A DNA stretch of 64,000 bases from Anaeramoeba flamelloides (lineage: Eukaryota; Metamonada; Anaeramoebidae): the NCBI GenBank assembly GCA_027625915.1, contig JANTQA010000036.1, positions 2,041,501 through 2,105,500 on the forward strand, read 5' to 3'. Below, piece after piece: positions 3,357 to 61,340 of this stretch (positions are counted from its first letter, which is position 1; each line of letters starts with the position of its first letter). The translations under genes were made by a program, and so were the position numbers. The notes under the pieces are model-generated. The model was given only the letters and a program-made list of their open reading frames with translations, was not told where the DNA came from and searched no databases.

Positions 3357-6300
3357 TTAATTTAAATATTTTTTTTCCATATATTTAAAAAATATTTGTA
3401 AACATTCCACTGATATTGTTGGTATTTTTTTGTTCTCTAATAATTCTACTAGAGTAGATACATCAATTACCTTTTTTCTTGGCAACGAAGAACGCTGGAA
3501 TAAAGTATTCAATGCTGACAGGGGATTTGATGTTTCTTTTTTTAATTGCCTTTGGAATTGTTTATAAGTATAATTTTGTAATTTAGTATTTTTAAAAGAT
3601 TGGTATGAATTTAAATAATACGGTAAATTGTATTGGATTAGATTTGAAAAATTTATTGCATTTATTTGTAACAATTCATCAAATTTATTATTTACAAAAT
3701 TTATTATAGTTTTGGAATAAAAATCAACAGGAATTAAATCAAAATAACAATCTGGATCCTCAACAAAGGTATTCATTTTTATGAACCCAGTTAAAATTCT
3801 ACAAATTAAATCTTTTTTGGGCAAATACCCAGTTTTCGAATTAATGAATATCGAGCCAGGCCGAAAAATTATTACCGGTATACCGAATTTCGTTTTAGCT
3901 TCCTGTATTAACTTTTCTGCAACCCATTTTGATTGCGAATACCCACTTAGCCTAGAAGGTGGCGGTTTTAATAAGGGGTTCTCATTCTTTGCGATATTGT
4001 TTGAATACCAATAAACTGAAGTTGTCGAAATATGAACAATTGGTATTTTCCTTTTTAATGAAAATTTAATAATTTCTATGGTGCCAAAAACGTTTGTTTG
4101 CTTTAATTCAGAATAGGGAAGTAGAGAATCGACAAAAGCACCGGAATGGTAAATAATAGTACAGTTTCTCTCTAGTCTTTCAAATTGTTCAATAGATAAT
4201 CCAAATTTAGGCAAAGATAGATCACCTATTATTGGAATAATTTTTTTTTTATATTTTTTCATAATTTTATTATTTAGATTTGTAATTTTTTCTAAAATAG
4301 AAAAAATTCTCTTATACGCTTTATTAATGCCATCATTACCATTCTCATTACCATTCTCATTACCATTCTCATTTCCATTCTCATTTCCATTCTCATTCTC
4401 ATTCTCATTCTCATTTTCATTTTCATTCCTATTCCCATTTTCATTCTGATTGATTTTCTTTATTCTTATTAAACAATAAATTTTTGCTGTATTTTTTAAA
4501 TTTAATAAATCTAATAATAAATGTATTCCTAAAAATCCAGTAACACCAGTCAAAAAAACATTTTTAAATTTTAATTTTCTTTTTTTGATTGCTTTTTCCT
4601 TAATCTTGCCATTGTTGTTAATATTTTTTATATTGATCCAATTGTCAATTGTACTTTCATAATCCCAATCAATTTTTGGTTGAAAATTGGAATAAATTTG
4701 AAATCTTAAATCTGGATTCTGAATATATTCAATAAATTTTTTAATTGGAATAAAAAAGAAAAAATTGGGAAGATTTAGCCCAAATTGATTTTTAATAATT
4801 TGGTTGATCCTAAATTTGGTCAAGGAATCCCCGCCGATTTGATGAATTGATTTCGAAGTATTAATTTTTGTAACTTGCAAATTTTTTTTTAAGATTTGCT
4901 CAACTGATTTGGGATTATTAATATCCTTTTCTAAAATTGAATTTGTCTCTTTAAACATTTTTTGTATTATTTCTTGATATTTTGAATAAAAATTGCCTCT
5001 GTTTCGTTTACCAGAAACGGTGAATAAACTACTTATCAAAGATTTTTTTATATTTTTTTCGATATAAATCATTTTTGGTATTTCAAATGCGCTAATTTCA
5101 AATTTTTTTGCCATTTCACTCAACTCTTCAAGAAATTCTTCATTACTTTTATTTAAATGCTTCTTAGTGGGCAGTATAATGGCAACTAAAAAGGAATATT
5201 CTGGATTTGAATGGACAGATATATGCTCGATCATTTTTGATTGTTTAAACACATTTTCTTCCAAATGGCTTAAAGAAACAAACACACCCTGCGATAATTT
5301 GACTGTGTTTTTGATCCGATCAATGATTATTAATTTGCCATCCACATACTCACCAATGTCACCAGTTTTAAAATAGCCATCCTTGGTGAAATTCTTTTGT
5401 GTTGTTTCTTCGTCTTTCCAATATTCACTTATCATTTCTTTTGATTTTACGCATATTTCACCACACCCCTCGTTCTTGAAATAGTTCATTTCAGGAACAT
5501 CAATTAATTTAACATTAACACCTTTCTTGATATTATAATCGAATGTGATTGATCCTGCTTCAGTTGTACCAAAACCATCTCGAACGATAATATCACTAAA
5601 AATTAGTTCCAACCAATTAACAATCTTTTTACTTGTTTTTGCCCCCCCCATAAAAGACACCCAATAATCGGTTTCCAAACGATTGCCGATATTTCTCCAC
5701 TAACTCATTTTTCTGGGTCTCGTCGAGCGATTTTGGCCCTTTGCCCGTTTTGCCCCTGTTTTTGTTTCTTTCTTTAATTTGACTTTTGTCTTCGAGATAT
5801 TTCGAATATAAGAGTTCATATATCCTTGGCGTAGAGGAAAAGAAATTAGGTGAGATCACTTTAACTTGTTCAAAGATTTGTGTAACATCGTTGCAGATGG
5901 CAATACGCCCTCCATAAAAGAGGCAACTTGCCATGGACTCTCTTGCTCCACAGTACCCTAAATTCGGATACAAATAGCGTACATGTGGCCTTGGCATTTC
6001 GTACAAGACTTGATCCCATTCAAATATTCTGTTGATCCACAGTTGATTTCGGAAAACAGAACCCTTCGGGTTTCCTGTGGAACCAGATGTAAACATAATC
6101 GTGTAAATTTCTTGTGGGTCAGAGTAATAAAGAGATTCCTTTTCTAATTGATCAATTTCATTTATTACACCACCCAGAACCTTAGGAGTCCTATAATTAA
6201 ATTCCATTTCATCAAAGCAAATAATTGGCGTTGTTTGTTCTTTAAACAACGCTTTTGTCTTGGCTGTACACAAAATTAAGGCTGGGTGAACTCGGTTACA

Positions 6301-7035
6301 TATTTCATTCACTTTTGAAATATTCGAATTTGGCGTAATAGGAACTGTTGCAAATCCTAAACAAACACAAGAAAGATCTGACATCACAAATTCTAATCTA
6401 TTTTCAGAACACAAAATTATAAATTGTTGTGTTTGAAATGGTTTTTTTCGATATTTTGTTTTTGCTGTAGTTTTTTGTTTTTGTTCAACTTTTTCTTTTT
6501 CTAACTCGATGCCATCTTTTGTTTCCTTTTCTTTCTTAATTTCATCTTCATTTTCTTCTTTTTGTTTTTCTCCTTCTATTTCTATTTTTTCTTCCTCTAT
6601 TTCTTTTTCTTTCTCTATTTCTTTTTCTTTTTCAATTTCTTTTCCATTTTCTCCATTATCTTTTTTTTCAAGTTTTAATAAGTAATTTAACAAGAAAGAT
6701 GAAAATCTAAGAGAAAAAAGATATACCTCAGAATAAGTCAACCAAGAAACTTCATTTGATTTATTAAATGTACCAAAGCAAAGTCGTTCACTATAAGTAT
6801 GAAAAATCGCTTTAAAAATAAAAGAAAGATATTTATTTTTCAAAATATATTTTTGGTGATCAAAATCCGGTAGGCAATCTCTGAAGCAATAATGTTCGTG
6901 CCCTTTTAGTTGATAACAATTTTCGCACAAATCATAATTGTTGCACTCGCTACAAGTGTAACGAACAGACAAGGGCTCTATGATTTTTGCACATGAAGCA
7001 CAATTAAATCTGGTTAGTTTAAAAAATGTCTTCAT
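3357..7035 (-). CDS. ZZ zinc finger-carboxylic acid reductase fusion, frameshifted
   Basis: NADPH-dependent reductase expected to turn a carboxylic acid into an aldehyde through acyl-AMP and a carrier-bound thioester. The first ATG is at 7035; the open frame runs further upstream only through TTG codons. Residues 9-48 form a ZZ zinc finger (CASC, CSEC, LCENC, then HEH). A Lys/Glu-rich insert follows. The adenylation domain shows FTSGSTGNPKG near residue 315, then in the downstream frame DGFGTTEAGS, KLIDVPEMNYF, GYFKTGDIGE, DRIKNTVKLSQG and the terminal SGKRNRGN lysine motif. These match bacterial carboxylic acid reductases better than plain acyl-CoA ligases. A carrier domain has the phosphopantetheine site GGDSL. 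The reductase domain has TGVTGFLG (nucleotide binding) and YSQSK (catalytic Tyr/Lys), with an Asn-Glu/Asn-Gly repeat inserted after the first Rossmann strand. The 468-codon and downstream 773-codon frames overlap at 5629-5678. The switch lies in a run of eight G; with seven, the product would be about 1225 residues. No introns seen. Confidence 0.85.
4335..4445 (-). repeat. In-frame hexanucleotide repeat in the reductase gene
   Basis: Tandem CATTCT/CATTAC-type hexamers on the plus strand encode alternating Asn-Glu and Asn-Gly pairs on the minus strand. The tract sits between the first Rossmann strands of the reductase domain, a place that tolerates loops, and should vary in length between strains. 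Confidence 0.8.
5642..5649 (-). other. Eight-G homopolymer at the frame switch
   Basis: On the minus strand the run is preceded by TTTTAT and followed by CAAAAACAAG. Read with eight G the upstream frame stops four codons later. Read with seven it continues as YGGAKTSKK into the downstream frame, matching the family pattern in this part of the adenylation domain. The cause could be an assembly or sequencing indel, a natural null allele, or slippage during transcription or translation. Confidence 0.8.
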
Positions 7036-11581: not shown

Positions 11582-14500
11582 TTAAATTTGATTGTTTTCT
11601 AATTGAGAAATAATTTTTTCAACTATTTTCATCAAATCTTGATTTGCTTGTTCTTTTTGTAAAAGATTATTTTTCAAAGCAAATGAGGCATTTTCAGCTT
11701 TAATGCATTTGGCCTTGGTTAATTGCAGTTCACCGAATCGATTATTATTTTCTTTTTCCATTGTCTTTTTAATGGAATCCATTTTCCCATAGGCATCGTT
11801 CAGCATTTTTTCGACATGCTTTTTCAAATCGGTGTATCGTTGCTGTGTATTTTCGAGTTGCTTTTTCAATTTGGTTTGCCATTGTTTCAGGTTTTTACCC
11901 TTTTCAACGATTTGTTTGTTTTCTTGCTGTAGCAAATCATATTGATTTCTTAACTGCGAATAAAAGGTTTCCATTCTTTCTGTTTGTTGATTCAATTTGG
12001 CATTAGTCTTTTCAAGTTGTGTTTTGGCTTTGTTTTGCTTTTCTTCTTCGATATAGCCAGTTTCCTTTTTAATGATATCTTCGTAGTGATCGATTTTTTT
12101 CTGATAGCTTTTCCGTTCAAGTACGGAGTTTCGATATTGTCTTTGGAGATCTGCTATTTCTTTCGTCAATTCTGAAATGCGCTTTGGCGCAGATCTGATG
12201 ACATTTTTTTTCACGTTTTCTTGATCGCCTGTTTTTGGGTTTTTTTGAGATTTTTCATTTTCTAATTGGTCCAATTCTTCGACACTTTCTGTTACTGCTT
12301 CATTGCCTTTTGCCTTTTTCTGTTTTGTTAAAGTTCTTTTTTTGTTTTTATTCTCTTCATTCTTTTTTAATTCCTTTTCTTGCTGATCTATTTGCATTAA
12401 ATATTTTTGATATTCATCATCAGACATTTCATTCATATCACCGCCATTCTCTTCATCAGAATTTAATAAATAGTCCTCCCCGAGGTCTTCCAAAAAATCG
12501 CGATAATTGTCTCCACCATTATCATTTTTTTTTTTTGTATTAGTTTTCTTGATACTTTTCTTTTGAGTTTTCTTTTTCTTAGTATTCTTCTTATTATTAT
12601 TAGGAATAAATTCTTCAAAACTATTTTCAGAATCAGAACTAGATTCAATACCATCTCTTTCACTGATCAACTGTTCAAATATATTAACAGTGTCATTATA
12701 AATGGAATCGTCCGAATTGGAATCTGATTCGGGTCCCTCTCGGACACTTTTTAAATCTTGTACTACTTGAGAGTAATAGTTTACCTCATCTTCATCGGAT
12801 TCAATCGCTTTATCATTATCGTTATCATCGTTAACTGTGGTATTTTTCTTATCTTTATTATTTCCATCAACTAAATTATTTGACATTTTTAATGAAGTGG
12901 GTTGTTTAACCTTTGAAGTGTTGTTAGTGGTTTTTTTAATTTCATTTAAATCGTTTTTAAAATTAGTTAACCATTCTTTTTCTTTTTCAATTTGCGAATT
13001 ACTGTTTTTATCATTTTTTGAATTATCGGTTTTAATATTTAATATTTCATGATCATAATCACTATCTTCACTTTCTGTTTCTGAACCGATTTTATCTGTT
13101 TTCAATTGTACTAATAAATTTGAAAATTCTTCATAATCCTTGTCGGCATCAGAATCTTCACTACTAAACCCGCCTTCTCGGACAGTTTGTAATTCTTGAT
13201 TTATACTTTCGTACATTTTGGAATATTTTTTCATTTCATCATCAACTGGAATTTTATTTTGATTACCTTTTTTTATTTTATTATTTTTTGAATTTTTAAT
13301 TTTATTTATCTTTATTTTTGGTTTTTTTTTAATGTTATTGTTATTATTTTTTTCAATTTTTTTAGTTTTATTGTTATTTTTTTTATTTTTATTGTTATTA
13401 TTTGGATTTTTCTTGTTATTATTTTTATTTGTTGGGTTTTTTTTTTCATTTTGTTTATTATTATCTGTTGATTTGTTAGGATTAGTTTTAGATTTAGAAT
13501 TAGAATCCGGCTTTGTTTCTTCAATAATTGTTTCAATTTCAGAGTCTGATTCAGATTCAGAATTATTTGTTCCCTTTTGATCAGTTTTTAAATGTTCAAT
13601 TAGATAACTAAATTCTTCAAAATCCTCATCATCATCTTCAGATATATCGCTTTGTGAATTTTCTTCTCGGACGCTTTTGAGATTTTGGTAATATTGTTGA
13701 TATTTCATAATTTCATCATCCTGCAAGGATTCTATTTCAGTTGTTGATACTAAATTTTCAGAATTATGATTGATAGTAACATTTGGATTTTGAGTATCAT
13801 TATCTTCTTCGCTATATCCAGAGTCGGTATTAGTTTCTAAAGTAATTTGTTTTTTCAAGTTTTCAATTTTTTTTTGAAATGCATCTTCTTCGTCATCTTC
13901 GTCATCGTCATCGTCATTGTCATCGTCATCATGCATGTTATCATCGTCTTTGTTCGTATTATTACTTTTACTTTTGAGGCCGTAATTCTCAACGTTGTTA
14001 TTATTGTTATTATTACTAAAATCTTCACCACCACTGTCATCACCACCAGACTCATTTATGTTATCACTATTATTTTCATCACCAGACATATTCTTTGCCA
14101 ATTCTTTTCTTAAATTTTCTAAAATTTTTGAATATGATTCATTTTTTTTCTCAATTTCTAAATCGGTATTATTATTTCCGCTTGCTAACAAATCTTCGAT
14201 TCGATCAGTTTCCAATTCCTTATTTAATTCATCTTCTTCGTCATCTTTTAAATTTGCATATTTACTATAATCATTAATGTTTGCTAACTTTTTAAGATCT
14301 TGTTTCTCATCATCATCAGAATAATTTAAATTCTCATCATTTCCAGAATCAGATCTATTTTTTAAATCGTTTTTAAACTTTTGCATTAACTTATTAAAGT
14401 CCTGAGGCTCAGAATCAGATCCTTCATTAGAATTTGATCCGTCAATATTCATTTCTTCAAATTTGTTTTGTTCCAATTCTTCATTAAAATCATTATCTTC

Positions 14501-15511
14501 TTTTTTACTATTATTCAAATATTTTAGATATTTCGCCAGCTCTTCTTTATTTTGCTCCAAGTCGTCATTATCTTCAGAGTTGTTTTCATCATTAGAATCT
14601 TCTCCAAAATCATCATTATCGTCTAAATCACTATAATCTACATCATCTTCATTATTACTGTCAACATTTATATTATCATTTTCATCGTCGTCGTCGTCGT
14701 CGTCGTCTTCATTGTATCGATCGACTTCAGATTCTAAAACTTTTTTTTCTTCTAAAATATCTCTTAATTTTGCTTGAAATAATTCAGTTTCATCATCGTC
14801 TTCATCCCCATCAGAAATTTCTTCAAGTTTGTTCATCAATTCATTGATCCTATCCTCATCTTCATCTACATCTTTGTCTTCATTTTCATTTTCATTTTCT
14901 TGATCGCTACTACCTTTATCCATTACATTTTTTTTTAAAGAATCAATCATTTGTGAATATTTTTCTGTTTCAAAATTGTTATCATCTTCTTCGAGGTTTT
15001 CTTCATTATTATTATATTCATAATTATAATTGTTTTCTTCCCCTTCTCCTTCTCCTTCTCCTTCTATTTCATTGTTTTCTGTTACTCCACTTTTTTCCTT
15101 ATTTCCTAGATCAGTCTCACCACTGTCATAATCCTCACTATTGTTCGACTCAGAATATGAATTCTCCTGTGTGATCAAGTCGTTCATTTTTTCTAAATAA
15201 TTTTGGTAATCTCCAGATTGGTTATTGTTATTTACTTCACCACTTCCGTATTCTTCATTAGAATTGTTGTCTTCTTCTGTTTCATTTTCATTTTCATTTT
15301 CGTTCGTATTTTCATTTCCATCCTCCGATCCGTCATCTATGAAATCATAACGCGAAATATCCAAATTCAAAGAATCAGAGCCAGAATTTCTTTCAGAGCC
15401 AGATCCTTCTTGTGAGTTGTCTTGGCCAGAACTTAGATCCTCGTCTGAGTTGATTGTATTCCTCATTTGTTCAATAAAGTTTTGGTACTCATCCAATTTT
15501 GAGTCGTTCAT
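11582..15511 (-). CDS. Giant acidic protein with C-terminal TACC-like coiled coil
   Basis: Single 1309-residue frame, ATG at 15511, TAA stop, no intron seen. Residues 1 to about 1090 are very acidic and low in complexity (Asp, Glu, Asn, Ser) with a basic Asn/Lys patch near 690-760. This region contains a loosely repeated module: a short helix of the type Y-Q-x-Y-x-x-x-L, often followed by LKSVREG or LQTVREG, then an Asp/Ser-rich stretch with SEDSD-like casein-kinase-2 sites. The last roughly 200 residues are a continuous coiled coil. Its end (RYTDLKKHVEKML, later LKNNLLQKEQANQDLMKIVEKIISQLE) resembles the conserved end of transforming acidic coiled-coil (TACC) proteins, which bind TOG-family microtubule polymerases at centrosomes and spindle poles. 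Acidic N-terminus plus terminal TACC domain is the family layout. By inference it is a microtubule-organising-centre protein. A generic coiled-coil protein is the alternative. Confidence 0.7.
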   Translation of the reverse strand: MNDSKLDEYQNFIEQMRNTINSDEDLSSGQDNSQEGSGSERNSGSDSLNLDISRYDFIDDGSEDGNENTNENENENETEEDNNSNEEYGSGEVNNNNQSGDYQNYLEKMNDLITQENSYSESNNSEDYDSGETDLGNKEKSGVTENNEIEGEGEGEGEENNYNYEYNNNEENLEEDDNNFETEKYSQMIDSLKKNVMDKGSSDQENENENEDKDVDEDEDRINELMNKLEEISDGDEDDDETELFQAKLRDILEEKKVLESEVDRYNEDDDDDDDDENDNINVDSNNEDDVDYSDLDDNDDFGEDSNDENNSEDNDDLEQNKEELAKYLKYLNNSKKEDNDFNEELEQNKFEEMNIDGSNSNEGSDSEPQDFNKLMQKFKNDLKNRSDSGNDENLNYSDDDEKQDLKKLANINDYSKYANLKDDEEDELNKELETDRIEDLLASGNNNTDLEIEKKNESYSKILENLRKELAKNMSGDENNSDNINESGGDDSGGEDFSNNNNNNNVENYGLKSKSNNTNKDDDNMHDDDDNDDDDDEDDEEDAFQKKIENLKKQITLETNTDSGYSEEDNDTQNPNVTINHNSENLVSTTEIESLQDDEIMKYQQYYQNLKSVREENSQSDISEDDDEDFEEFSYLIEHLKTDQKGTNNSESESDSEIETIIEETKPDSNSKSKTNPNKSTDNNKQNEKKNPTNKNNNKKNPNNNNKNKKNNNKTKKIEKNNNNNIKKKPKIKINKIKNSKNNKIKKGNQNKIPVDDEMKKYSKMYESINQELQTVREGGFSSEDSDADKDYEEFSNLLVQLKTDKIGSETESEDSDYDHEILNIKTDNSKNDKNSNSQIEKEKEWLTNFKNDLNEIKKTTNNTSKVKQPTSLKMSNNLVDGNNKDKKNTTVNDDNDNDKAIESDEDEVNYYSQVVQDLKSVREGPESDSNSDDSIYNDTVNIFEQLISERDGIESSSDSENSFEEFIPNNNKKNTKKKKTQKKSIKKTNTKKKNDNGGDNYRDFLEDLGEDYLLNSDEENGGDMNEMSDDEYQKYLMQIDQQEKELKKNEENKNKKRTLTKQKKAKGNEAVTESVEELDQLENEKSQKNPKTGDQENVKKNVIRSAPKRISELTKEIADLQRQYRNSVLERKSYQKKIDHYEDIIKKETGYIEEEKQNKAKTQLEKTNAKLNQQTERMETFYSQLRNQYDLLQQENKQIVEKGKNLKQWQTKLKKQLENTQQRYTDLKKHVEKMLNDAYGKMDSIKKTMEKENNNRFGELQLTKAKCIKAENASFALKNNLLQKEQANQDLMKIVEKIISQLENNQI

Positions 15512-34130: not shown

Positions 34131-36135
34131 AGAAAATTTACACCCCATTTCCTTATTTTTTACTTTTTAATTCTCAAAATCAACATATTGTTCTTTTTTC
34201 TTTATATTCCTATAAAAAAATCTATCTTATTTTTCTCTGGAAAAGGTTGTAAATTCCACTAATTAATATCAGACCTAAAAAAAAAAATTTAAAGATTTTT
34301 TGAATCCATGAGTGCAATAAACTTATTTATCAGTAATTAAATTATAAAGATAGTTTCTTATATTTTCTCCAAAAATAAACACTTTTAAATAAATAATGAA
34401 TTAGGAAAAATATACTTTAATTTTTCTATTTATTTTTTTGATTTTATTTATATTTTTTGAAAAACCATTCATAATAGAAAATAATTGCCAAATAGAAAAA
34501 AAAATGCCAAATCTAGTTTAATGAAGAAACATTTGTTAAACATGTTTTATTTGTTAAACAAATTGTATTTGTTAAAGATATAAAAAGTTCTTATTTTTTT
34601 TTAACTATTTTATAACAAAAACCATATCTAAAAAATAGGTGAATTATTGGAATTAAAACAGAATTCAAAAACATCAAATAAAAACCAAAATTTCTGAACT
34701 CCCAATTTACCAAATTTGAATTTTAATATTGACCATTAGAATAATAGAATTATTTAGATTTTTTCTTGTTATAATTTTGCCATTGGGATGAAATTATTAT
34801 ATTAATTTTCATAATATTCCTTAATACAATTTGCGGAATTTCAGTTTCATATATCTATCTAGATCATTTTAATATTAAGAAAAAAAATATTTGAAAAATT
34901 TTCCTTTTCTCTACCCATCTGATAATTAAAATCATGATATAATTAAAATGATGTTCACATTTTTTTTCTAAATAGTTGTGTGTTGTTCCAATCATACTGA
35001 CAAATTCCAAAAAAATCCAATAAACTTTTTGATTACCTTGTCCTTTTTTGAAATCTTATAACTCTGCTATGAAAATATTACATTCAAAAGAAAATTATGT
35101 AGATCAACTAATTTTACTAACTTTCCTAACACTTAAATAATTAAAATCTTGGTTCAAAGCTGTGTAAAAAACATTTAAAAAAGGGAAATTGAAATTTAAA
35201 GTTTTTTACTCATTTTTTATACACCAATTTAAAAAAAGGAGTGATCTGTAGCCCATGTTTGGAAAAATTTATAAAAAATTGAATAATTCTCAACACACCT
35301 GACAGGTAGATCTTAAGAGAAACTTAAATACCGACACTAAACGATAGTATCAAAAAGTATATTTTGGCTAAAAATTCAAGGATCTAAAATAAAAAAAAAC
35401 CAACAACGAAAAGAAAAGAATAAAAATCGAAAAATCATTTTTATAAAATGTGTGACATAAAAAGTTATCCATAGTCTCATTAAAAATACAAATAACAAAC
35501 ACAAATAGACGATTTTTAGGCCTTTATGAAAAAAAATGATAATCACACTTTTGAAAACTCGTTTGAAAATAATGATTATAATCTAAAAAAAGAAATTATA
35601 TTCAATTATGTTTAATCACTCAAGTTTAGGATTGATTTACAGAGATGAAAAGATAAACACCATATTCCTTTGAGAACGCTTCCAATAAGAATCTTCATTT
35701 TGAGCAAAAGTATCTTGATGTGAAGAAAAACAAAGAACTTACTCTAATGACATGTTGTTTTAAGAATTTCTTTTGATTGCTCTTAAAAAGATCAGTTGGA
35801 AAATAAAAGAATTTGCAAATTTCAAGTTAATTGTAGTAATATCCACGACACTTTTGTATTAAATATCCAAAAAGAAGTGGGTTTGTGAATATAAGTAGGT
35901 GTAAAGTAAAAATAAAATTTTAAAAAGGGTTAAAGGTTAATATTTAAAGAAAACAAATTCATTTTTCATTTTTTTATAATTTTCAAATTTTTGAACAACT
36001 CTAGTCCAAAGTCACCTTCTATTCTACCAACAACAAACTTTGAATTTCAAAAATTGTCACACTCTGCAAAAATTCCAATAATAAAAACACATTTTTCCAA
36101 AAAACTATTTCTTTATTTTTGCCAGAATTTTCCAC
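34131..36135. other. AT-rich intergenic stretch upstream of the ABCA gene
   Basis: No gene or repeat recognised. The segment nearest 36135 should contain the promoter and 5' untranslated region of the transporter gene. Confidence 0.4.
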
Positions 36136-39100
36136 ATGAGCACAACAAGTGATCCAAGTGATCTAAGTGAAACACAAAGTTCAAATACTGATCTTGAATT
36201 AACAGACAAAAAACAAAGAAAAGAGAAAAAACAAAGAAAAGACAAAAGCCAAAAAAAAGACAAAAAACAAAGAAAAAAAAAAAAACTACAGACAAGCTCT
36301 AGTGATGAAATGAGTAAACAAGAAAGCAAAAGTAGCAGCGTTTCTGATAGTCATAGCACCCCAACCAACGCTACAAGTCTTAGTATTGCTTCTGAAGAAG
36401 ACGATACACTTCAGCCACCAAGCAAATCAAGGAACAAAAAAATAAAAAAAAAAATGCGAGATTTATCGAAAAAGAAATTGGGGTTCAAAAACCAATTCAT
36501 TGCGTTGTTTCTCAAGAACTTGTATCTCCAGAAGCGAGCCAAAAAAACAAATTTAATTATTTACGCGTTTACGATCATCTTTATCGTGTACGTCTTTGGC
36601 GTTGGTGAGATTGTGCATCGCTATTTAGAGGAAACGATCCCCGAGAACAAAAACCCTGAAAGCTATGAGAGCGACATTTTTTTGAATGCGAATTTCCCGT
36701 ACGTCGACACGCCGACGGGCTCACCAGACAAATTCGAGGGCGAGCTGTCTGCGATGTCGCAAAACTTGACATTTTACGTCACACGGGACTATGAGCCTTA
36801 CGACCAATTCCAGCCGATCCTGACCCTATACGACACCAAGGACTCCTTAGACGACCAGTTTTTCCAGTCGTATGAAAAGAACCTGCAGGAAATCGCTGGG
36901 GGCATTTACTTTGAGCACTTGGATTTATCGCCGGACTCGCCAAAGGTCGAGTACTCTGTGTACTTCAATTCCACAGACACCACAAACATGATCATCCAAA
37001 TGTATAAGCAGTCGCAGCTGGAGGGCCTAACGATGTACATGCCAACGCTTGTCAACACCGCAAACAGGAACATTTTCAAAAAGCTCTGGGGGGACGATCC
37101 AAGCAAAAGCGGAGACGCGGCAGATCTTTTCGTCGGGCTCAAGGACTTCCCAGAATTTAAACGCAAGGAGGCCCTGGACATCATGTCCATCGAGCAGCCC
37201 TTCTCCTTTAATTTCATTTTGCACATGCTGTTCCCGGTCTTCATGGTCTCCATAGTGTATGAAAAGGAGAATTTGCTGATCGACTTGATGAAAATGATGG
37301 GGCTCAAGACCAGAATATATTGGCTTGTCAATTGGCTCTTCGACTGGGCATTGTATTTCGTCCAAGTCACGGTGTTTTACATCATGCTCGTGATATTGAG
37401 ATTCCGGTTCATCACCCAAAACGACTTTAGCATCCATTTTGTGCTGCTCTTGCTTTGGGGCAACACCATGATCTCAATGGCATTTTTTTTATCAAACTTT
37501 TTTAAGAAGGTGAAGTCAACCTACATCATTGGCATCTTTTTGGTCGTCTTTCTCACCTTTGTATTGCCGACGTATTATTGGTCAATTGCAGGCAATAACT
37601 CAACGCCATACACAATCATCTTTTTGCTCAAATGCGTTCCCTCGATCGCCTTTGTACAAGCGCTAATGGCCATTTCCGACGCGAGCGCAATCGGACAACC
37701 AGGCGCCAAAATTGATGAAACCAGTTTGGACATCAAAAATACTGGATCCTCTTATTTATTTCTCTTTGTTCAGTCCATTATTTTCTACACACTAACAGCT
37801 TATTTTAACGGGTTTTTTGATCCCGTCTTGAATAAAATCAAACATTTCATAAAAAAAAAATTTTTGAAAAAGATCTTGCACCATACACAGACAATCGATC
37901 AAGACGAAGAAGACGAGGTTCCTCAAGATGTTCTTGATGAAATTAAAAGAGTCAAAAATTGTGATGATGAAGTTAGAATTTTGGGGCTCGGGAAAAGTTA
38001 TCCTGGTAAAGATGGTAACCTCCCAAAACACGCACTGAAAGGCCTACATTTAGGAATACCAAAAGGTCAAATATTTGCCTTGCTTGGCCCTGTAAATTTT
38101 TCAATTTTTTTTTTTTTTTTTTTATTTTATTTTTATTTTTGATCTTTTAATTGAAATGATCAATGCTAAGGTACTGTTTGATGGAAAAACAATATTCTTC
38201 TTTCGTGATATTTAATTTAGTCTTGAATCGTTAGAATCATTTATAAGATATTGTGTCTATCCTTATCAGTTCTTTCCTTTTTGAGTAATTGACCAGTTAT
38301 TAGAATAAAACTCATTTTTATTGAAGAGAATCTGGATCAAGGCAACTAAATAGTAATGAGACAAAAATTAAGTTTTTTTTTTTTTTCAAAAAATATTGAA
38401 TGGAAGAGAGCTAATATCAAAAAAACAGACCCCCCCGTTTGTCAGAAACACTAACCTTTATTTAGTGCTTTTTATCCTTGCTATAATTTAGGTAAGATTA
38501 CAATTCATAGGATAGCTTTTCTTTCAAAAAATGAAAAGAACAAATAATTTTCGAAATGAAGACAACAGTATCAAAAAAAAAGAGAAAGAAAAGCAAGAAA
38601 TGCAAGTGAGAGTATGCTTTATTGGTAAGGGTTAAGTGCCCAAGAGCTCTTAAGCTGTTAAAGAGAGAGTTTTGAAGTGACTAAATTTGTGACTCCTAAT
38701 CCAAAGAGTAGTCAAAAGAACCTTTTAATTACAGTCACTAGAAGTATTTTAAACTCAATTGAGTTTTCTATAAATGAAAGACAAGAAAAAGAGAAAGAAA
38801 ATAAATAAATGAAACGAAACTAAAAAAATATTAAAAAAACAAAAAACTTTCAAGTGAAAAGTTTTATTTTGTAACCCAAGTGTTGAATGGGTCGGTGGTT
38901 GATTTCTTTTCTGTAGATCATTCCAAAAATTTTATCGATCACCACCATAATATCACCTGTTTTCGTAATAGAATGTAATTGGTAGAAGTTGATTCCAGTA
39001 AAAATCAATTGCATAAAAGAATAAGTTCAAATGCCTACCACTGTTTCTCCTCTTCAATACTTTGCATTAGAGCCACACATTTGGCTATTTTTCTACTTCT

Positions 39101-42100: not shown

Positions 42101-43048
42101 CAATTATTCATACCTTTGTCCAAACTTCTTTAATGAATATTATCAGTACTAAAATTAATTAAACATTTTCAATCTACAAAATTATCTGAATAAATCTCAA
42201 AGAATGGTGCTGGTAAAACAACAACAATGTCTATTTTAAGTGGGCTAATCTCACCAACTTTTGGAAAAGCATACATTAACGACTTAAAATTAAACAGACA
42301 CAATATGGATAAAATCCATCAGATCATTTCAATTTGCCCACAATATGATTGCTTATGGGGCGAACAATCAGGCTGGGAAACATTAGAGTTTTTTGCTCGG
42401 CTACATGGGTACCAAGGAGAAATATTAAAGAAGCGTGTTACTCAAACCTTACAAGATCTAGACCTCTTTGAAGATCGCAAAAAATTAATTAATGAATATT
42501 CTGGTGGTATGAAACGAAGAATTTCATTGGCAATCTCTTTAATTGTCGATTCTAAAATCGTTTTCTTAGATGAGCCAACTACCGGAATGGATCCTTCAAG
42601 CAAAAGAAAAGTTTGGGACGTCATTCAAGAAAAAAAAGCAGACCGTGCAATTATTTTAACAACACACTCAATGGAGGAAGCAGACGCACTTGCCGATCGA
42701 ATCGGAATTTTAGAAAATGGAAAGCTTCGTGCAATTGGTGTAAGCGAAGAATTAAAAAAACGCTTTGGTAAAGGTTATAAATTTTCAATACATACTAACA
42801 GCACTAAAAACGATAAGCGCGCACACAAGTACTTTATGAAAAAATACCCAAATGCACAATTATTAAATTCCCTAGCCTGTACTAGAAATTATGAAATACC
42901 TAAAGACGACATCTTATTATCTACGGTGTTTAATCAATTCGAATCTAGAAAGGAAAAATTAGGTATACTCGATTGGGGAATTTCACACACCACCTTAGAA
43001 GAGGTGTTTTTAAGAATTACTGTAAATAACGAAATTGGTGATTTTTAA
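36136..43048 (+). CDS. Half-size ABCA-family ABC transporter, two exons
   Basis: Membrane transporter of the ABCA type, usually a lipid exporter or flippase. Exon 1 36136-38091 (652 codons) and exon 2 42203-43048 (281 codons plus TAA) join in phase 0 inside Walker A (LLGP then NGAGKTTT). Total 933 residues. Residues 1-115 are a charged Ser/Lys-rich cytosolic tail. A first membrane helix lies at about 139-160, followed by a large extracytosolic loop to about 350. Further helices lie between 355 and 565, including the ABCA-typical stretch EKENLLIDLMKMMGLKTRIYW. The nucleotide-binding domain has Walker A, Q-loop (ICPQYDCLWG), signature YSGGMKRR, Walker B IVFLDEPTTGMDP and switch His in TTHSMEEAD, all intact. 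One membrane half plus one ATPase domain is typical of protist half-ABCA proteins that dimerise. Substrate unknown. Roughly codons 117-545 are far richer in G+C than the rest. Confidence 0.92.
39902..39982 (+). repeat. Minisatellite (about 9-10 bp unit)
   Basis: Seven to nine imperfect copies of AAATGAACC/AAATGAACT/AAATGAATC in tandem, inside the ABCA intron. Confidence 0.85.
40061..40166. repeat. Short inverted repeat
   Basis: ATTTGGTTTTTTGGGATCAA at the left pairs with TTGATCCAAACAAAAACCAA at the right, around a central ATATGATTTTAATCATAT palindrome. Inside the ABCA intron; may be a tiny foldback element. Confidence 0.6.
40222..40465 (+). repeat. About 240-nt pyrimidine tract
   Basis: Almost only T and C on the plus strand, with short CTTT/CTTTTT periodicity. 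Two overlapping open frames through it are poly-Phe/Ser artefacts. Such tracts can form triplex DNA and also mimic polypyrimidine splicing signals, here about 1.75 kb before the real acceptor. Confidence 0.85.
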
Positions 43049-46495: not shown

Positions 46496-47530
46496 TTAAT
46501 TTTTTTCTTGACTACTTTTGTTTTGCACTTTTTCATTTTCATTTCCAATTTCCTCTTCTTCTTTTCCCTCTTTTTCATTTTCAATATCCTCTTCTTCTTT
46601 TTCTTTTTCATTTTCTTTTTCTTTTTCGCTCTCACTTTCACTTTCTTCAGAATTTTCATCCGGAGGAACAAGTTTACTGGAAATAATTTTAGATTTTTCT
46701 CTTTCTTCTTGTGTCCAAGGTGTATTATAAAGTTGTACAATTTGAAATAGTTTTATGTTCCCTAGAAAGTCAATAGATTTTCTGAATGGATCTAAGTAAA
46801 GTTGGCTGGCTGATCTGATCAGGTCATTGGTTTCCTTGAGGGGGTTATAGACAATTAAATTGTAATCACAAGCCTTGTTTCCAAATTTTTCGATACCAAT
46901 AATGGTTAAGGAATGGGAGCTATATTGGAAGTATAGTGGAGGCACATTCTCTGTTTTTTTTTTTGATTGGGGGTAGTTTTGGAAATAATCCCAAACAAAT
47001 TCATACAAATGCAAAAGAATATTTTCGTTCTTAGTCCCATCAAAATCATAGATTTGATTTTTGATTCCAAGATAGTTAAAGAATGTAGAGCACTCGGTTG
47101 CACCGATCCATTTCCCCATACCAACTAATTTGTTATTGTATATCTCCGTCCCCCCTTCAACATCAAAGCCCTTCGACCAAGCCACTTCGATCATCTTTTC
47201 AATGGTCAGCACAGAGGGGATTGTGTCTTTAACAACTGAAAAATTTGTAAACAGGTTTGAAATTGCCATTTGGATGTTACGAAAGCCACAGCTTTGTTCG
47301 AAACCTTGGTACTGGTGTTCAAGTGCATCACATAAATAATAACTTCTCTCTTTTGTTTTTGTTTGATCGCCATGCAGTGCCTCAAGGGCATTCCTAATAA
47401 CAACAAAAAGTTGATTCTTGATCTTAACTGGCTTGTATTGGTTTGTGGAATGTAATTTTTTATGAGCTTTTAATTTTGTATGGAAAAAATACCTTCCACA
47501 CTCTTTACATTTTTTATATAATTCTGTCAT
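46496..47530 (-). CDS. ZUP1-like (peptidase C78) deubiquitinase with C2H2 finger
   Basis: Likely cysteine protease of the ZUP1/UFSP family; ZUP1 members cut Lys63-linked ubiquitin chains in DNA-damage and stress responses. The first ATG is at 47530; the frame extends further only to a TTG codon. Total 344 residues. A single C2H2 finger comes first (C8, C11, H23, H27). The protease core follows, with SCGFRN around Cys81 (family motif CGYRN), GGTEIYNNKLVGMGKWIGATEC (a conserved block), PLYFQYSSHSLTIIGIE around His206 (family GHSRTVVGIE), and LIVYNP at 225-230. In ZUP1 the last block carries the catalytic Asp (DP); here it is Asn229. The C-terminal 50 residues are a Glu/Lys low-complexity tail. 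At 344 residues it is shorter than animal ZUP1, lacking its multiple fingers. Orthology to ZUP1 rather than UFSP is likely but not certain. Confidence 0.85.
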   Translation of the reverse strand: MTELYKKCKECGRYFFHTKLKAHKKLHSTNQYKPVKIKNQLFVVIRNALEALHGDQTKTKERSYYLCDALEHQYQGFEQSCGFRNIQMAISNLFTNFSVVKDTIPSVLTIEKMIEVAWSKGFDVEGGTEIYNNKLVGMGKWIGATECSTFFNYLGIKNQIYDFDGTKNENILLHLYEFVWDYFQNYPQSKKKTENVPPLYFQYSSHSLTIIGIEKFGNKACDYNLIVYNPLKETNDLIRSASQLYLDPFRKSIDFLGNIKLFQIVQLYNTPWTQEEREKSKIISSKLVPPDENSEESESESEKEKENEKEKEEEDIENEKEGKEEEEIGNENEKVQNKSSQEKN

Positions 47531-48114
47531 TTTGGTTTTTTCTTTTTGCTTAAATTTGCTTAAAAGTTTTGAAAGAAATATCAATAAAATAAAAATGATT
47601 TTTTGATTGGATCTTTATTTTTTTAAATGAATTGAATGATCTGTTTCTTTTCTAAAAAGGGATACACTACAAGAAACTTTGGAAATATTTCTTTTTCCAA
47701 AGATTTGTTTTTCAAAAGTGATTTCGATTCAGATTTAAAAGAATTATTTTTTCTTTTTCGAGATTTTTTTTGTAAAAAGGAGAAAGAATTTTTTTACACG
47801 TCAATACGTACGAGAGAATAAATAGGAAAATTGAAGTCAGTTGAAAAAGAAATATAACAAATAGTTCTTGTAGGACTATCCAAAATTTGTATTCTATGGA
47901 TTTTAGAATCTAAGCTATTTCCAATAAAGTTGGTCAAATTTATTTTAAAATATATCTTTTAAACTCAATCCTCAAAAAAGTATTTAAATATACAAAATCA
48001 TAAACTACCATTCATCGACTCTTGACAATAATTTTATTTATTTCTTCGTATTGTAGTACATAAAGAAGAGGTTAAATTTTTTGATCTCGATTATATCTGA
48101 TGTTTTTTAAGGGT
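47531..48114. other. Intergenic stretch upstream of the ZUP1-like gene
   Basis: Probably holds its promoter. A 61-codon plus frame at 47636-47821 is Phe/Lys rich, and I do not call it. Confidence 0.4.
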
Positions 48115-52209: not shown

Positions 52210-53313
52210 TTAATCTCTCTCAAAACAATTTTGGCAAGTTATTTTCAAATTCTCATAGTTTTTATGGTAAGTTGAAACTTGTGCAAAACAATTTGATTGT
52301 TTGCAATGTAGATAATTCAATTTTGGGTGATTTACTAAGTCTCTGAAGGACTTTTTTAAAAACCTTCTGTATACTGTTCTTTTGGCCTTCTTCATTTCAA
52401 GATCATTCCTGATGGTTTGGACTGGCAACAGTTGCAAATGTTCACATAGGGGATTACATTTGTGGTTTACCATAAAGTCCTTGTATTGGTCAATTAGATT
52501 TGAATAAAATGTGTCCTCACTTGAATAATATTGAAGATTGATAACATTGATCGAATCAAACTCTGTAATTAATGAATATGCTTTGCCACAATTAAATTGG
52601 TAGGTGAAATGGGCAAAACACGAAATGATTTGGTGTTGGGAACAGTTAGGATCTAAATTTGCAAGTTGCCTGATGTTGTGTCTTTGGAAATTTGGGAATT
52701 GTTTTCGAATAAAATAATATTTTATTTGTTCCTGATCGGGCAATAACAGTTGTGGTGCATTGATTTGAAAGCACATTTTTTTGTTTATGATCTTACGAAA
52801 TACTCTCATCAATTGCGACACAATTGTTTCTTTGAATAAAAACAATTTAATTTTGTTTTTTTTTATGTCGTGATCCTCTGTTGAGTCATTCAGCTCTGGG
52901 TATGATTTACCAATCACAAAATATTCTTTGTCATTAGTTGTACGAATACTTATTACAGACGTGATTTCCTTATTGTTATTTAAAACAAAAGATGATTCGA
53001 TTTCAAACCCAACATACGATTTGAGTGTTGGGATTTCATTTTGCCTTATTGAACAAATATAGGTATAATTTGGTTTTTGCGTTTGTAAATTGCTTTCGTC
53101 AAGACTGTATATTTTTGCAATTGGTTTCTTTTGGGAGACTTTTGATTCATTTTCGTCTGTTCTTTTCTTTTGGACTTTTTGAATTTTTCTTTTGTTCAAT
53201 TCGTCTTGAATCTCATAGGATTCGTTGTATTCATCATAATCGGACCGTGAGTCTTCGTCTTCTTCTGACTCAGTGTCAGAAGAGTCTGATGAAATTACCA
53301 TTCGCCATGTCAT
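52210..53313 (-). CDS. Degenerate alpha-kinase-like protein
   Basis: 367 residues, ATG at 53313 (a second Met is at codon 5), TAA stop, no intron seen. Residues 1-60 are an acidic Ser/Asp/Glu tail and basic linker. The middle resembles an atypical alpha-kinase (eEF2 kinase/TRPM6-7/MHCK fold): YFVIGKSY near 131-138 like the strand with the ATP-binding Lys, AHFTYQF at 234-240 like the family's conserved FSHFTY, and HKCNPLC at 284-290 like the zinc-binding HxCNxxC near the end of the fold. The stretch after HFTYQF lacks the DLQG and DPQIHS motifs (it reads TEFDSIN and NLQYYSS), and no GNLG-like loop is seen. I therefore infer an inactive or highly divergent kinase. A C-terminal Cys set (C-x4-C ... 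C-x2-C, residues 337-363) may bind another zinc. No neighbour suggests a partner. Confidence 0.65.
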   Translation of the reverse strand: MTWRMVISSDSSDTESEEDEDSRSDYDEYNESYEIQDELNKRKIQKVQKKRTDENESKVSQKKPIAKIYSLDESNLQTQKPNYTYICSIRQNEIPTLKSYVGFEIESSFVLNNNKEITSVISIRTTNDKEYFVIGKSYPELNDSTEDHDIKKNKIKLFLFKETIVSQLMRVFRKIINKKMCFQINAPQLLLPDQEQIKYYFIRKQFPNFQRHNIRQLANLDPNCSQHQIISCFAHFTYQFNCGKAYSLITEFDSINVINLQYYSSEDTFYSNLIDQYKDFMVNHKCNPLCEHLQLLPVQTIRNDLEMKKAKRTVYRRFLKKSFRDLVNHPKLNYLHCKQSNCFAQVSTYHKNYENLKITCQNCFERD

Positions 53314-53504
53314 CGATATTAAGAAAAACTACAAAAGAAAAAAATGAAAAACCTTCTTTGTCCAGATTATTTTCTCAAGAATTCAAAATAATAAATAGAA
53401 TAAAGGACAGTTAATTTGAGATTTGAAAAATTGACATTTTTTCTCTTTTATTTATTTGGTTTTAAATTTTTCATTCTTTCAAAAAAAGAAAGTACTTTAT
53501 TAGA

Positions 53505-60692: not shown

Positions 60693-60713
60693 TAATAGAT
60701 TATCTGCAGATTT

Positions 60714-61340
60714 ATGGATAACAAAAAATCCACAGACATAGAATTTAATAGCGATATGGAATTTGTTCATTTTATCACAATTATTAATACAAAAATCGAG
60801 CAAACTCATTATATTACATATTTTGATACTACAAAAGACGAAGTGCTAATCGAAGACGGTGAAGATTTGTATATAGCTGTTCATGAATATTTGGTTTTTT
60901 TAAAAACTTTAAATCAAAATGAAATCTCAAAAAACCCGCCACTGCGATTTAATTTAAATACAAAAAATAAGCATTATGCACTATTAAAAAAAAATTCAAT
61001 TAACCAACAAGAAAAAAAAAAATTTCAACTCTCTAACAAAAAGGAAATTGAAAAAAAAAACAAAAGTCAACAAAATTTATGTGTAACATACAAGATTGGT
61101 TTTTCAAAGCAGTTCCCATTTAGGTATATTCAAATACCCATTGAAATGACATATTTTGAATTGCAAGCAATGCTTACAAAGATATTTGGAGAATTTTCAA
61201 GTATAAAATTTAGAGATTTGGAACATGAGTGGATTCCTATCGCCGGGGAGGACAGTCTGAGATACTGTATGTCGGAAATTTGTGCATCAAATTTGAAGGG
61301 TAAAAACCAAAAGGGTGTGTTAATGCTTGGAAAATTGTAA
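60714..61340 (+). CDS. PB1-domain protein, probably lacking an upstream exon
   Basis: 208 codons from ATG 60714 to TAA. The C-terminal PB1 domain is complete (about 122-208): TYKIGFSK (first strand), FRYIQIPIEMTYFELQ, then an acidic OPCA-like stretch (FRDLEHEWIPIAGEDSLRYCM) and last strand GVLMLGKL. PB1 domains mediate pairing between signalling scaffolds. The N-terminal part ends with a second acidic motif, YFDTTKDEVLIEDGEDLYIA, which looks like the back half of another PB1 domain without its first strands. The frame is open upstream to 60699, with a possible acceptor CTGCAG at 60704-60709, so an upstream exon may supply the missing half. Between the two lies a Lys/Gln linker. Partner unknown. 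Confidence 0.65.
   Translation: MDNKKSTDIEFNSDMEFVHFITIINTKIEQTHYITYFDTTKDEVLIEDGEDLYIAVHEYLVFLKTLNQNEISKNPPLRFNLNTKNKHYALLKKNSINQQEKKKFQLSNKKEIEKKNKSQQNLCVTYKIGFSKQFPFRYIQIPIEMTYFELQAMLTKIFGEFSSIKFRDLEHEWIPIAGEDSLRYCMSEICASNLKGKNQKGVLMLGKL

Follow-up and report, generated by a model that had tools for sequence, protein, structure and literature searches.

The question raised by this locus is whether a protist gene joins a ZZ zinc finger to a carboxylic acid reductase (CAR) in a single protein. The gene lies on the minus strand of a 64,000-nucleotide stretch of the Anaeramoeba flamelloides genome (contig JANTQA010000036.1, positions 2,041,501 to 2,105,500; hereafter the window, with positions counted from its first letter), where a first-pass annotation, made from the letters alone, had reported such a fusion. 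Comparison with the rest of the host genome indicates that the window gene very probably belongs to a set of three protist paralogues, each coding for a ZZ finger in fusion with a CAR-like enzyme that has adenylation, carrier and thioester reductase (R) domains. The three are referred to together as the trio, and the parts of the window gene are listed in Table 1.

A ZZ finger and a CAR-like enzyme share one frame in two intact paralogues

When a ZZ profile was run against the host genome (254,072,379 bases in 76 contigs; E ≤ 0.001, 28 candidates scored), at least four ZZ fingers were recovered: those of the window copy, of two paralogues (L005 and L006, 4.3 Mb apart on contig 51) and of one ADA2-like protein (PF25299, 35.7 bits; cut-off 27.5). 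L005 was found on the minus strand (L005:1739-5860; 1373 codons, 4122 nt from ATG to TAA) and L006 on the plus strand (L006:3245-7000; 1251 codons, 3756 nt from ATG to TAA), each as a single frame with 0 internal stops, so that splicing is not required to connect the ZZ finger with the enzyme. Both encode the Pfam order ZZ, AMP-binding, carrier, NAD_binding_4, with the carrier model PF00550 (cut-off 20.8) passed by L006 (21.9 bits) and missed by L005 (18.1 bits), though the GADS site of the latter aligns. As the same domain order recurs in two single intact frames elsewhere in the genome, the fusion goes beyond chance; it is real, contained in one frame in 2/2 intact copies, and independent of the broken window copy.

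For the window itself, the first-pass annotation, which gave no strand, was right that the ZZ finger and the adenylation domain share an open frame. This first frame, the minus-strand open reading frame 7089-5629 (486 codons from stop to stop), contains the ZZ finger (PF00569, 27.5 bits; cut-off 21.4) together with the larger part of the AMP-binding domain (PF00501, 88.1 bits; cut-off 29.9; match 6435-5653). The carrier and reductase that it had placed downstream were also recovered, the reductase by NAD_binding_4 (PF07993, 180 bits; cut-off 20.1) and the carrier by its GGDS site in alignment with the paralogues, with no PF00550 match in the window at E 0.1, but both lie in another frame (5699-3357, 780 codons) together with the end of the adenylation domain (PF00501, 26.4 bits, below the cut-off). 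The claimed fusion of a ZZ finger to the complete adenylation-carrier-reductase enzyme is borne out by the two intact paralogues, but in the window the region is split between two frames.

The second frame of the window copy is 41% identical to L006 over 787 alignment columns and 31% identical to L005 over 848, and the first frame 28% identical to L006 over 520 columns and 26% to L005 over 537, the latter two values being computed partly through misaligned low-complexity inserts. Conserved in all three copies are the P-loop, A5, TGD, the A10 lysine, the carrier serine, the R nucleotide motif, the Ser/Thr and YxxxK. In each of the three copies, long E/K- or N-rich inserts interrupt the adenylation and reductase domains at differing sites; with the inserts placed differently in each, simple-sequence growth seems to have struck the copies independently.

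The ZZ fingers of the paralogues also exceed the PF00569 cut-off (32.5 and 30.6 bits). In 3/3 copies the zinc ligands form three CxxC pairs and one HxH pair with identical spacing (CxxC-12-CxxC-5-CxxC-5-HxH), the first cysteine being residue 12, 30 or 42 of the respective protein, and the closest solved ZZ structures by match were those of an Nbr1 fusion chain, CBP and MIB1. A partly conserved linker connects the finger with the adenylation domain. A stretch following the finger, Y..R.C.G.FN, is common to all three copies, so the fusion probably preceded the duplications that gave rise to the paralogues.

Adenylation domains group with those of bacterial CARs

When the adenylation domain of L006 was compared with a plasmid collection, the top matches were bacterial CARs (Sphingobium 1e-25, Tsukamurella 6e-24, Mycolicibacterium 2e-23, Streptomyces 1e-18). 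Among the matches listed (the best 40 of 85), the best non-CAR was an unannotated Fusobacterium place (5e-16), ahead of a CAR-like Curtobacterium row (8e-14), and AMP-binding protein or ligase rows started at 9e-13. The solved CARs 5msc, 5msp and 5mso matched both halves of the window protein by sequence. A predicted structure of the ZZ finger plus adenylation domain was of low confidence (predicted local distance difference test, pLDDT, 42.3; predicted template modelling score, pTM, 0.28).

The main adenylation tree contained 20 rows (column filter 60%): the trio, five bacterial CARs (four actinobacterial and one alphaproteobacterial, with no fungal or other eukaryotic adenylation rows), and acyl-CoA ligases and nonribosomal peptide or polyketide synthetases (NRPS/PKS) that were bacterial or archaeal only. 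Rows taken from the plasmid collection for the trees comprised 10 of the best 25 of 172 matched records and 9 of the best 40 of 85. The trio (100/100), the bacterial CARs (100/100) and the two together (100/100) each formed a clade, in agreement with the CAR-like identity first proposed for the enzyme. The alternative set against that identity at the outset, an adenylation domain lying inside ordinary acyl-CoA synthetases, was rejected on the rows sampled by the approximately unbiased (AU) test (trio with six acyl-CoA ligases, p-AU 0.0098), as were groupings of the trio with three long-chain ligases (p-AU 5.4e-5) and with six NRPS/PKS rows (p-AU 0.011). The further suggestion that the enzyme had been recruited, possibly by gene transfer, gained no support, the trio being sister to the five bacterial CARs and not nested within them. 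A 22-row tree (column filter 30%) included two long branches omitted from the 20-row tree, a feruloyl-CoA synthase (L023) and a Halococcus ligase (L026); here trio plus CARs received 95/94 and the feruloyl-CoA synthase joined next (89/94). On the sequences sampled, the adenylation domains of the trio are thus kin to bacterial CARs and not to the acyl-CoA ligases or NRPS.

Within the bacterial part of the tree, a CAR-like enzyme of alphaproteobacterial Sphingobium plasmids (L008:1727-5269), annotated as fatty-acid-CoA ligase FadD or as an oxidoreductase, fell inside the otherwise actinobacterial CAR clade.

The reductase domain compared with those of CARs and NRPS

Against the thioester reductase model TIGR01746 (cut-off 213.35), both paralogues passed (232.6 and 235.1 bits) and the window copy fell just below (208 bits). 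The top solved stand-alone R domain by sequence was MxaA (4u7w, 156 bits); the R regions of 5msc and 5msp, both CAR chains, gave 60 and 61 bits. A fold search with the predicted R domain also placed MxaA 4u7w first, with MxaA, PKS, CAR and NRPS R domains leading; the model is moderate (pLDDT 62.4, pTM 0.67) and the matches have TM ≤ 0.52 with large root-mean-square deviation, so only their ranking was used. On custom R profiles the trio scored 226-268 bits with NRPS-R and 104-128 with CAR-R, but bacterial CARs themselves reached 182-222 bits on NRPS-R, so that the profile comparison alone does not separate CAR from NRPS.

In an R-domain tree with a short-chain dehydrogenase/reductase (SDR) outgroup, the five bacterial CAR reductases formed a clade excluding the trio (100/100), and the AU test rejected neither trio plus CAR (p-AU 0.474) nor trio plus NRPS (p-AU 0.228). 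A chimera of CAR-type adenylation with NRPS-type reductase was considered and dropped, given this value for trio plus CAR and the NRPS-R scores of the bacterial CARs. Further loci came from pattern scans. Genome contigs scanned with two narrow peptide patterns gave one poor match (L007), and of two viral-contig scans one gave none and the other 12 loci, the two of these that were examined being bacterial NRPS. These two (L027 and L028, on IMG/VR contigs) are bacterial NRPS genes with terminal reductases; their R domains were entered in the tree, and five other viral-contig loci plus L007 served as the outgroup. A phage collection gave 12 records, each matching only parts of the protein.

Position 998 of SrCAR, a gate against over-reduction, was considered as a guide to the product. 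At this position (D in 5msp_A, counted along the alignment) the trio has G, S and A, five NRPS have G, and in the five bacterial CARs the residues are D, D, N, G and D; the residues do not split the groups cleanly, which weakens any product forecast made from them.

Alternative explanations for the window gene and its enzyme

Several observations weigh against reading the trio as three genes for ZZ-CAR enzymes, and one of them concerns the window copy, the frame of which is broken mid-gene. The change of frame was located at an eight-C run on the plus strand where the two frames overlap, and in alignment homology to the paralogues follows the first frame up to the run and the second frame beyond it. 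An intron behind the change was rejected, because the frames overlap, the switch falls inside a G/C run and paralogue homology continues on both sides. The window copy could be a recent pseudogene, leaving only the two other copies to act, and a genuine switch at the run would indeed stop the protein within the adenylation domain; we consider this unlikely, as the second frame has zero stops across 2.3 kb from 5699 to its natural end and keeps its carrier and reductase motifs, and as the run is one of only three G or C runs of at least 7 within the 64 kb window, such runs being classic spots for base-calling slips. Overlapping frames at so rare a run, with a stop-free second frame, are better explained by a run miscounted in the assembly or by a break of very recent date than by an old pseudogene. 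It is very improbable that the cell itself uses slippage at the run, in transcription or translation, to produce the full enzyme alongside a fragment made of the ZZ and adenylation parts; the passage of paralogue homology from one frame to the other agrees with slippage, but neither paralogue has a C run or a frame switch at the corresponding site, and the family therefore does not share the switch. We read the window copy either as a gene that is whole in the organism but miscalled at the C run, or as one that broke very recently.

The remaining contrary observations concern the class of the enzyme and the role of the finger. Both paralogues score far below the cut-off of 1300 bits of the bacterial CAR equivalog NF041592 (L006 344.6, L005 379.9), for which controls from 3/5 CAR references gave 1620.6 (Mycolicibacterium), 1582.9 (Streptomyces) and 1284.2 (Curtobacterium, itself just below). 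For the window first frame, NCBIfam ranks the amino-acid adenylation model first (60.5 bits) and carboxyl_red next (53.2 bits). The trio was flagged for unusual amino-acid composition in both adenylation trees. Lastly, in a tentative mapping, a three-aspartate pocket of the HERC2 type appears incomplete in all three proteins (window A/N/D, L005 D/N/D, L006 N/D/D), so that docking by the finger is a best guess and N-degron binding is not specifically predicted. With respect to the enzyme, the NCBIfam ranking of the first frame could be taken together with the likeness of the R domain to MxaA, the higher NRPS-R scores of the trio and the 135-146 bits obtained with the L-aminoadipate reductase model TIGR03443 (window second frame 135.7, L006 134.8, L005 145.5; cut-off 1030.1, not reached) to argue for an aminoadipate-reductase-like or NRPS-like synthetase acting on an amino acid. 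We hold this to be quite improbable, since by their adenylation domains the trio and the CARs form one clade at 100/100 and a grouping with NRPS was rejected; since both L006 (345 against 135 bits) and L005 (380 against 146) score higher on the CAR model than on the aminoadipate model; since in L006 the CAR model also exceeds the amino-acid adenylation model (345 against 77), which is absent among the L005 matches at 1e-20; and since the NRPS-R profile scores alone do not separate CARs from NRPS and a grouping of the trio reductases with those of CARs was not rejected. By E-value, carboxyl_red (NF041592) is the top NCBIfam model for the window second frame (248.6 bits) and for both paralogues, and the broad CAR architecture, a single chain with adenylation, carrier and thioester reductase domains, is present in 2/2 intact paralogues and, in the window, across two frames. 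By architecture and motifs the trio is CAR-like, outside the bacterial equivalog, and its proteins probably work like CARs.

Features of the window

Table 1. Positions of the ZZ-CAR gene, its parts and other features in the 64 kb window.
Feature	Positions	Strand	Basis
Whole ZZ-CAR gene, two frames	3357..7035	-	ATG 7035-7033, stop 3359-3357
ZZ zinc finger	6892..7008	-	PF00569 27.5 bits; ligand spacing same in both paralogues
Adenylation domain, first part	5650..6840 (outer limits estimated)	-	PF00501 88.1 bits; P-loop TSGSTGNPKG
E/K-rich low-complexity insert in adenylation domain	6442..6669	-	sequence; similar paralogue inserts elsewhere
Eight-C run, site of open-frame switch	5642..5649	plus-strand C	frame comparison; no such run in paralogues
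Adenylation domain, last part, second frame	4940..5654	-	PF00501 26.4 bits; NF041592 stretch; FGTTE, TGD, C-terminal lysine SGKRNR
Carrier domain	4713..4925 (limits estimated)	-	paralogue alignment; GGDS serine codon 4826-4824
Thioester reductase (R) domain	3360..4568	-	PF07993 180 bits; TGVTGFLG, ISTTS, GYSQSKW
N/E/G-rich low-complexity insert in R domain	4332..4451	-	alignment; absent from L006
D/E/N/S-rich open frame	11582..15511	-	1309 codons; no Pfam match at E 0.001
ABCA-type transporter	36085..38142 and 42194..43048	+	ABC2_membrane_3, then ABC_tran with ABCA1-like R1 domain
UFM1-protease-like gene	46496..47614	-	Peptidase_C78 104 bits
Possible atypical alpha-kinase	52210..53328	-	21.0 bits, just below Pfam cut-off 21.3
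PB1-domain open frame	60699..61340	+	29.6 bits, cut-off 23.6

Elsewhere in the window, the Walker A motif of the ABCA-type transporter is split by about 4 kb of what looks like a long intron, and the 2 kb bin with its first exon has 40% G+C, compared with 20-29% in the other bins. The UFM1-protease-like gene, Peptidase_C78 being linked to UFM1, carries a long E/K/S-rich tail, and the D/E/N/S-rich open frame contains recurring segments.

Discussion

Activity, substrate, product and ZZ partner are here inferred, the expected chemistry from conserved catalytic motifs. In the CAR cycle, as PMC5396282 describes it, an acid is activated with ATP, loaded on phosphopantetheine at a conserved serine and released as aldehyde with NADPH. 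By the same steps, the adenylation domain of the trio would use ATP to activate a carboxylic acid, whose acyl group would then pass to phosphopantetheine at the GGDS/GADS serine, and the reductase would release it with NADPH as an aldehyde, or possibly an alcohol. The ZZ finger, for which we rather favour a docking role, would be a non-catalytic module that, by binding a partner protein, positions the enzyme or regulates it. In HERC2 and p62 the ZZ finger recognises the N termini of proteins, in HERC2 by means of an acidic pocket with aspartates D2709, D2728 and D2730 (PMC9001736). The trio shares its Pfam family and zinc-ligand pattern with the fingers of Nbr1, CBP/p300, MIB1, HERC2 and p62, but those proteins are receptors, ligases or chromatin proteins (in part after PMC9001736), whereas in the trio the ZZ finger is attached to a metabolic enzyme.

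Compared with known enzymes, the trio is like the bacterial CARs (NF041592; 5msc, 5msp, 5mso) in the order of adenylation, carrier and reductase domains, in the catalytic motifs and in the sister relationship of the adenylation clades on the rows sampled, and unlike them in having a ZZ finger in front, in scoring 345-380 bits against 1300, in a reductase outside the five-CAR clade and in its long low-complexity inserts. With the fungal carboxylate reductase of Neurospora crassa (8aep, R domain), the trio has the thioester reductase fold in common, and both are eukaryotic, but the match to the trio reductase is weak by sequence (E 6.2e-4) and ranks 23 by fold with 17% identity. The MxaA-type terminal reductases of NRPS/PKS (4u7w; TIGR01746) are the top match of the R domain, among stand-alone domains by sequence and also by fold, but the MxaA-type domain closes a peptide or polyketide assembly line and the R domain of the trio stands behind a single carrier that is itself preceded by a CAR-type adenylation domain. 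We know of no ZZ finger in a fungal carboxylate reductase, nor, to our knowledge, does any known bacterial or fungal CAR carry a targeting module. None of the open-access papers listed in literature searches names, in its title or the opening of its abstract, a ZZ finger fused to a CAR-like enzyme and, as far as that literature goes, the combination is apparently undescribed.

The fusion opens no new class of chemistry. Three of the at least four ZZ fingers found in the host genome are in CAR-like fusions, and it is conceivable, if on balance somewhat doubtful, that the trio represents a eukaryotic branch of CARs distinct from those known in bacteria and fungi, where the ZZ finger would hold acid-to-aldehyde or acid-to-alcohol chemistry at a particular protein partner or compartment, and that this lineage uses its ZZ fingers largely in this way. 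CARs are valued biocatalysts and, if this were true, a eukaryotic CAR with a built-in docking finger would offer both a natural instance of a scaffolded reductase and further sequence diversity. For the biology of the organism, it would raise the question of which aldehyde or alcohol this protist makes with three such enzymes.

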